A stretch of 64,000 nucleotides of DNA from Tepidicaulis marinus (lineage in GTDB: Bacteria; Pseudomonadota; Alphaproteobacteria; Parvibaculales; Parvibaculaceae): contig NZ_BBIO01000005.1 in assembly GCF_000739695.1 (NCBI RefSeq), positions 124,001 to 188,000 of the forward strand, read 5' to 3'. This document shows, in pieces, positions 6,360-41,440 of this stretch; the first letter of the stretch is position 1; each line of letters begins with the position of its first letter. The notes below the pieces were generated by a model, which was not told where the DNA came from, did not search any database, and saw nothing but the letters and a program-made list of their open reading frames with translations. The translations under genes were made by a program, and so were the position numbers.

Positions 6360-7619
6360 ATGCTTTCGGCACTATGGAATTGGCTGTCCGCTGAACAAGG
6401 GTACACCCCTCATGGGTTTTGCCTGGTTTGGGACCCGGCCCTCGTTTGGATCCATGTCGTCTCCGACGCACTGATCGCCCTTGCCTATTTCTCCATTCCC
6501 GCCGTTCTGTTCATCGCAGCGCGCCGCCGCCCGGACTTGAACCCGCACGGCGTTCTTTATCTTTTCAGCGCCTTCATCATTGCCTGCGGTGTGACGCATC
6601 TCTTCGGCATCGCCACCATGTGGAGCGCGCTTTATGCCGCCGAGGGCGTGGGTAAGGTCATCACCGCCACGATCTCCGTCGTTACCGCCATCGTGCTTTG
6701 GCCGCTTCTCCCGAAGTTTTTAAATTCGCCCTCGCGCGACGAATTAAAAAAAGCCCATTCGGACCTCGAAGCGCTGAACGAAAACCTGGAACGTATGGTC
6801 GAGGAGCGCACGCAGGCCCTGCAGGAAACATCGCAAAAGCTCGAAGCAGCGCTCGCTCAGGCCAAACAAAGCGCGCAGGAACGCACCTTGTTCTTCGCCA
6901 CGATGAACCACGAGCTGCGCACACCGCTCAACGCCATTGTCGGCTTTACCGACATGCTGGAGACCATGTGGGACAAGCTGCCCGAAGAGCGGCGCCGCAA
7001 CTATCTCAGCGACATCCGCGCCGCGGGCCTGCGCCTCAATGGGCTCGTCACTGAAATCCTGGAAATCGAGCGGCTGAAGGAAAGCCCGCGCGCGATCAAG
7101 GAAGGCGTGCGCTTTTCCCTTGCGGAGGCGGCCGCAAACGCCGTCAAAATGCTGAAAGGGCCGATCGAGGAAAGCGGTGCCCGCATCGCGCTCGACATTC
7201 CCGCGCAGATCGAACTCAAGGGGTTCCCGCAGGATTTCGAGCGAATCTTGACGAATTGCCTCTCCAACTCGATCAAGTATTGCGATAGGCAGCCGGAGAT
7301 CGAGGTCACCGCGCGCGTGACGCCGGACAACCGCGCCCGGATCATCGTCGCCGACAACGGCATCGGCATTCCCGCCAAAAGTTTGCGGGAGATTTTCGAG
7401 CCCTTCCGCCGGTTTCACGAGCACACCCACCCCGATATTCCCGGAACGGGGCTCGGCCTGCCGCTGATCCGCGAGCTGACCAGCCAGTTCGGCGGCACGG
7501 TGAGCTATCAAAGCACGGAAGGCAAAGGCACCACGGCCATCCTCACCTTCCCGCTCTGCGCGGAAGAAGGCGCCCCGGCCCGGACGACGAAGCCCATGAC
7601 CCCCGCGCTGCCCGCCTAA
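6360..7619 (+). CDS. Sensor histidine kinase with ethylene-receptor-like membrane sensor domain
   Basis: This is a 419-residue kinase. Residues about 28-117 form three membrane segments closely matching the plant ETR1/bacterial Etr1 ethylene-binding domain: SDALIALAYFSIP (D36, Y43, P47), then AFIIACGVTHL with C76 and H80, the spacing of the copper ligands Cys65 and His69 of ETR1. A coiled coil (about 125-175) leads to the phospho-acceptor H184 in NHELRTPLNAI, and then N-box NCLSNSIKYC, G1 DNGIGIP and G2 GTGLGLPL. There is no GAF or receiver domain and no adjacent response regulator. GGGAG precedes the ATG. Kinase certain; ligand inferred from the sensor domain. Confidence 0.88.
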   Translation: MLSALWNWLSAEQGYTPHGFCLVWDPALVWIHVVSDALIALAYFSIPAVLFIAARRRPDLNPHGVLYLFSAFIIACGVTHLFGIATMWSALYAAEGVGKVITATISVVTAIVLWPLLPKFLNSPSRDELKKAHSDLEALNENLERMVEERTQALQETSQKLEAALAQAKQSAQERTLFFATMNHELRTPLNAIVGFTDMLETMWDKLPEERRRNYLSDIRAAGLRLNGLVTEILEIERLKESPRAIKEGVRFSLAEAAANAVKMLKGPIEESGARIALDIPAQIELKGFPQDFERILTNCLSNSIKYCDRQPEIEVTARVTPDNRARIIVADNGIGIPAKSLREIFEPFRRFHEHTHPDIPGTGLGLPLIRELTSQFGGTVSYQSTEGKGTTAILTFPLCAEEGAPARTTKPMTPALPA

Positions 7620-7722: not shown

Positions 7723-7798
<76 letters not shown>

Positions 7799-40911: not shown

Positions 40912-41124
40912 CGCACCGCCCTTTATTCTTAAAGTCAGTGCCCCGCGCCCGAGCGCATTCAAACGGCGGGAAATGGCGGCAATGGGGAGCAAAAAGGGCA
41001 AGAATGTGCCGGGCGCAGGCTTGTTGCAGAAAGCACAAGACTTCTCTCAGTCAGGCGCCCTTCACCCTTTATTTGCCGCTCATGATGCTTATATTACGTC
41101 TGTCGGCATTGCCGACTATGGCGA
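40912..41124. other. Intergenic region upstream of ssrA
   Basis: This interval lies between the DUF1287 start and the tmRNA acceptor piece. It should hold divergent promoters. Apart from the hairpin at 41102-41116 and a possible -10 at 41090-41095, I see no gene or strong motif. Confidence 0.4.
41102..41116 (+). other. Hairpin at the 5' side of the tmRNA gene
   Basis: GTCGGC-ATT-GCCGAC can fold directly upstream of the acceptor piece. TATATT at 41090-41095 could be a -10 element, but no good -35 is seen. It may be the leader of the tmRNA precursor. Confidence 0.4.
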
Positions 41125-41440
41125 TAAACGGACTACGTAATAAGCCTATCGGACCCGGGGGCAGTACCCGGCGCCTCCACCAATATCCCCGCGCTTGAAA
41201 CAGTTTTGCGGGCTTCAGGGGGGCGAAACAGGATCGACGAGGGTGTAAAGGTAGTTTTTTCGCTCGGCATGGTAGCCACCGTTATCGGGCCAAACTTGAT
41301 AGTTGCCAACGACAACTATGCTGAAGCACGTCTCGCTGCCTAAGCAGTGCGACAGCTTCGAATTAAGCCCTAGCCGTTAGCACGGTTAGGCGGGGTTCGA
41401 GGGCACCTGGCAACAGAAGCCCTCACTTATCCTCTGCTCT
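41125..41440 (+). ncRNA. ssrA: Transfer-messenger RNA, circularly permuted two-piece form
   Basis: The acceptor piece comes first: T stem 41055+100 region at 41155-41159 with 41167-41171, acceptor strand CGCCTCC at 41172-41178, then ACCA ending at 41182. A spacer (41183-41218) with a CCCGC/GCGGG hairpin separates it from the coding piece, which starts GGGGGCG at 41219. The two strands pair over seven bases with a G-U at the third pair, the alanine identity mark. GTAGTT (41251-41256) can pair with GACTAC (41131-41136) as helix 2. The tag frame from GCC at 41305 reads ANDNYAEARLAA and stops at 41341-41343. Hairpins at 41369-41390 and 41399-41424 follow. Outer ends are approximate. tmRNA frees stalled ribosomes and marks products for ClpXP. 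Confidence 0.95.

Follow-up and report, generated by a model that had tools for sequence, protein, structure and literature searches.

The closest described relatives of the kinase analyzed here are the bacterial ethylene receptors AzoEtr1 and SynEtr1 and the plant ETR1/ERS proteins. Ethylene sensing by bacteria is, as such, already known. For ETR1, one Cu(I) ion is bound per monomer and has been modelled at C65/H69 (PMC6586836). When produced in yeast, residues 1-130 of AzoEtr1, from Azospirillum brasilense Sp7, bind ethylene, and binding is lost from cells in which the gene has been disrupted (PMC11819568). AzoEtr1 shares with the Tepidicaulis marinus kinase the ETR1_N domain, all seven ethylene residues and a C-terminal histidine kinase, but its sensor and kinase are separated by a PAS domain, and its gene overlaps a single-domain response regulator gene (PMC11819568). 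SynEtr1 (slr1212 of Synechocystis) and plant ETR1/ERS likewise have the N-terminal ethylene-binding domain in common with it, but in them the kinase is preceded by GAF or phytochrome-like domains and some also have a receiver, all of which are missing here; SynEtr1 has a known regulator, slr1213, and signalling by the plant receptors is mainly kinase-independent (PMC6682694, PMC11819568).

The gene examined here lies in a 64-kb stretch of T. marinus DNA, referred to as the window (Table 1). Judging from its sequence, we consider it probable (roughly 0.8) that it encodes a bacterial sensor histidine kinase of the ethylene-receptor type, dependent on Cu(I) and acting via an unlinked response regulator. 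According to this model, a single Cu(I) would sit within three transmembrane helices between C76 and H80, close to D36, and the copper would bind ethylene or a similar small alkene. The ensuing change would reach the HisKA/HATPase_c core via the coiled coil and alter the autophosphorylation of H184, a decrease being probable, as has been proposed for ETR1, SynEtr1 and AzoEtr1. Phosphate would then pass to a response regulator whose gene lies in another part of the genome.

Domain architecture of the kinase

A Pfam search identified the ETR1_N family (PF25487) with an E-value of 8.1e-35, which excludes a chance match, and with a score of 119 bits, the cut-off being 27. The T. marinus genome contains no other ETR1_N domain, and the same search returned zero matches in 14 control genomes. 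Three hydrophobic segments, centered on residues 28-48, 67-85 and 98-116, fall where the helices of the domain are expected. The kinase boxes are complete, with H184 in HELRTP, the N-box from residue 299, DNGIGIP at 332, FEPF at 346 and GTGLGL at 362. The preliminary description of the protein as a histidine kinase with an ethylene-receptor-type sensor is borne out at the sequence level by three Pfam domains and an intact catalytic core. NCBIfam models yielded only generic kinase matches, all below cut-off, and a promoter scan did not find a sigma-70-like site.

Pfam detected no GAF, PAS or receiver domain anywhere in the 419 residues, including the GAF domain that characterizes plant ETR/ERS receptors, and no domain of any kind between sensor and HisKA, in agreement with the earlier claim that the coiled coil leads straight into the kinase core. 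Since the coiled coil alone joins sensor and kinase, the protein offers a simple system for measuring the effect of copper/ethylene binding on kinase activity.

Table 1. Coordinates of the kinase gene, its predicted functional elements and stand-alone ETR1_N genes of phage contigs.
Feature	Sequence	Position	Strand	Basis
Kinase gene, 419 aa	window	6360..7619	+	ORF, Pfam domains, 90% identical ortholog in UBA4490
ETR1_N ethylene-binding-type TM domain, residues 28-122, three helices	window	6441..6725	+	PF25487, AzoEtr1 identity, model
D36 codon (ETR1 Asp25 equivalent)	window	6465..6467	+	alignment; invariant in 22 aligned domains
C76 codon (ETR1 Cys65 equivalent, predicted copper ligand)	window	6585..6587	+	alignment; invariant in 22 aligned domains
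H80 codon (ETR1 His69 equivalent, predicted copper ligand)	window	6597..6599	+	alignment; invariant in 22 aligned domains
Coiled-coil linker, residues 123-174, directly into HisKA	window	6726..6881	+	no Pfam domain; model helix 126-161
HisKA dimerisation/phosphoacceptor domain with H184, residues 175-240	window	6882..7079	+	PF00512 E=1.8e-15; HELRTP at 184
HATPase_c catalytic domain, residues 291-399	window	7230..7556	+	PF02518 E=2.5e-26; N, G1, F, G2 boxes intact
Phage stand-alone ETR1_N	L113	6001-6495		
Phage stand-alone ETR1_N	L114/L115	5983-6369		
Phage stand-alone ETR1_N	L116	3839-4222		
Phage stand-alone ETR1_N	L119	5995-6501		
Phage stand-alone ETR1_N	L129	3962-4342		
Phage stand-alone ETR1_N	L132	3962-4342		
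Phage stand-alone ETR1_N	L134	3830-4312		
Phage stand-alone ETR1_N	L135	3977-4363		
Phage stand-alone ETR1_N	L137	3808-4176		
Phage stand-alone ETR1_N, Maribacter phage Colly_1	L122	4932-5801		

The layout was compared across the class. Of 385 alphaproteobacterial genomes sampled, 28 contained PF25487, and a Pfam scan of 21 ETR1_N proteins returned 17 kinases and 4 sensor domains alone. In 13 of the 17 kinases no domain intervenes between sensor and kinase core, and the other four have a PAS domain; no response regulator was found in the stretch examined around three of the EBD (ethylene-binding domain) kinases (L026, L022, L033). The preliminary description was right that a GAF domain, a receiver and a neighboring regulator are missing, but this does not make the protein distinctive: their absence is a recurring alphaproteobacterial pattern.

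The predicted ethylene/copper site

The sensor was aligned with Arabidopsis ETR1 and 31 alphaproteobacterial ETR1_N proteins. All seven residues of the ETR1 ethylene-binding set (D25, Y32, I35, P36, I62, C65 and H69) have counterparts, namely D36, Y43, I46, P47, I73, C76 and H80; the earlier assignment of D36, Y43, C76 and H80 to Asp25, Tyr32, Cys65 and His69 is thus matched in the alignment, and I46, P47 and I73 complete the set. The comparison was repeated with AzoEtr1 as read from the plasmid record of strain Sp7, where it has 525 aa, a length in agreement with PMC11819568. AzoEtr1 is 47% identical to the kinase over 111 residues without a gap, and the same residues were matched. Together with the curated family match, these comparisons argue for a putative copper/ethylene site of the ETR1 type. 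Across 22 aligned domains, residues H18, C21, D36, Y43, I46, P47, C76, H80 and K99 do not vary. By analogy, C21 may stand in for the N-terminal cysteines through which plant receptors are linked as dimers, a role that has also been suggested for a single cyanobacterial cysteine (PMC6682694).

If Cu(I) is bound, the real signal might still be copper availability, CO, O2 or redox state, or another alkene, with ethylene binding incidental. The Cys/His pair is a copper site as such, and no ethylene-related genes were identified. We nevertheless regard this alternative as unlikely, since the equivalents of I35, P36 and I62 are also conserved, which are needed for ethylene binding and are not modelled as copper ligands, and since high-affinity ethylene binding is known from the nearest bacterial homologues tested (PMC11819568; PMC6682694). 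The genome encodes two copper P-type ATPases, which could manage copper.

The sensor was modelled with AlphaFold over residues 1-162, using eight input sequences (mean pLDDT 77). The model presents helices at 26-56, 62-85 and 92-122, followed by a long continuous helix at 126-161. The three helices expected of the domain were accordingly predicted, and C76 and H80 are placed four residues apart on the second of them. D36 precedes the turn near residue 59 by 23 residues and H80 follows it by 21, a spacing from which we infer that both should lie at a similar depth in the membrane. A PDB profile search with the ETR1_N domain returned no solved relative; a PDB fold search with the sensor model found only generic helical bundles, with a best Z of 8.5, in the common range, and a fold search of a viral library with the same model gave no significant match, so that neither fold search was informative.

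A match to the ETR1_N family does not in itself dictate the motif, since four of the aligned domains (L028, L029, L031, L032) have lost several site residues and in a fifth (L034) the cysteine is replaced by glycine. These five proteins possibly sense something else. Such losses in relatives could suggest that the domain here is likewise degenerate and a non-sensing membrane anchor on an ordinary kinase. Here, however, the site is complete and the sensor evolves slowly. Scanning genome contigs with the whole protein recovered one true ortholog, the other matches being unrelated kinases. This ortholog, encoded at the same genomic place in Rhodobiaceae bacterium UBA4490, a metagenome-assembled genome of the same genus, is 90% identical overall and 94% identical in the sensor, with dN/dS values of 0.04 for the sensor, 0.07 for HisKA and 0.13 for the catalytic domain. 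The domain with the predicted ethylene site is under purifying selection within the genus, and a non-sensing anchor appears very improbable.

Kinase core and partner regulator

The preliminary description had noted that no regulator adjoins the gene, and this extends to the entire window, which contains neither a receiver domain nor a second kinase; a partner response regulator would hence be encoded elsewhere in the genome. Receiver domains number about 34 in the genome, which also has many unlinked kinases, and comparison of its response regulators with those of relatives gave best matches of about 35%, which do not discriminate among candidates. Genes for DivK, PleD and CtrA are present, as named from their sequences and gene order.

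Among the closest counterparts is L026, an uncharacterised EBD kinase of 409 aa from another alphaproteobacterial family (genome G380), which is co-linear with the T. marinus protein and 42% identical over 391 residues, shows the same succession of sensor, coil and kinase, has no nearby response regulator and provides the nearest kinase core in the tree (support 96/94). Its neighbors differ, and include malate synthase and, just downstream, a possible PilZ-type gene. On sequence reading, the latter looks like a short PilZ-type (c-di-GMP-binding) gene; it lies at 9662-10033 of L103, about 50 bases 3' of L026 and on the same strand. The EBD kinases of the Novosphingobium plasmids ES2-1 and THN1 have the closest sensors among plasmid records (58-59%) and also lack an intermediate domain, but they carry a different kinase core, with an AHDFNN-type H box, and an overlapping single-domain response regulator gene. 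These plasmids (L120, L121) are conjugative, which suggests that such receptors spread horizontally. In ES2-1, the EBD kinase pair lies about 0.8 kb from a cas9 gene.

Given the unlinked regulator, the kinase could belong to the PdhS/DivJ/PleC network and phosphorylate DivK or PleD, thereby connecting ethylene or copper to cell cycle and polarity. The presence of the DivK-PleD and CtrA genes would fit such a role, as would the motif of DHp helix 1, HELRTPLNAIVGF, of a type found in about 20 kinases of the genome, and the PdhS-like DHp domains of other EBD kinases (L022, L033, L028). The resemblance to PdhS is nonetheless confined to this first helix, since the FGP..G..RY and SG.HLL.LINDILDLSK signature is absent from the second. 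The kinase-core tree, which is weakly supported and contains no named PdhS references, places the core with L026; its grouping with L016, L037 and L044 is weak, and it is not firmly joined to PdhS-like kinases. Membership in this network is possible but improbable. A broader idea, that short orphan EBD kinases (this one, L026, L022, L033 and others) couple copper/ethylene sensing to hubs such as DivK/PleD, is a speculation to which we assign still less weight; if true, a gas would steer cell cycle or polarity via shared hubs, with no dedicated pathway.

Distribution and probable gain in Tepidicaulis

Among 40 genomes of the family and order, ETR1_N was detected in two, those of T. marinus and UBA4490, so that the kinase adds a compact, regulator-free receptor of the ethylene type to an alphaproteobacterial lineage whose remaining family is without one. 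In G242, from another genus of the same family, the D-amidohydrolase, enoyl-CoA hydratase, CheZ-like and FAH genes and rodA occur in the same order, and kinase and tRNA-Lys are both absent from the interval between amidohydrolase and rodA; the other relatives inspected present a tRNA-Lys near rodA and no kinase. Because the kinase is restricted to this genus and sits between conserved neighbors, the simplest reading is that the gene was probably gained there. Its G+C and GC3 contents resemble those of its neighbors, which argues against its having been acquired very recently from a compositionally different donor. A tRNA-Lys(CTT) gene at 7723-7798, right after the kinase gene, is a possible insertion landmark, and a tmRNA gene lies at 41087-41434 of the window.

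Stand-alone and split ETR1_N proteins

A search of viral contigs revealed that phages, too, encode ETR1_N proteins that stand alone (Table 1); those from phage contigs are 120-170 aa long, and cultured Maribacter phages have one of 289 aa. In those that were aligned, the copper Cys and His are conserved, and the Asp is often replaced by His or Asn. Several of the genes adjoin Amidase_3, Phage_lysozyme2, weak Phage_lysozyme, CHAP/tail-lysozyme or Rz-like spanin genes, and given these lysis-type neighbors a lysis-cassette or holin-like role is possible for these small membrane proteins. A literature search combining phage, ethylene receptor and holin found nothing, and the proteins are apparently undescribed in the literature covered; they may represent a newer finding than the ETR1_N kinase itself. 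Genes encoding ETR1_N alone (138-140 aa) were also observed at 7693-8109 of L107 and 8391-8813 of L108, where they overlap or abut the next histidine kinase gene and are followed by response regulator genes; sensor and kinase seem in these cases to be separate proteins, forming split ethylene sensors.
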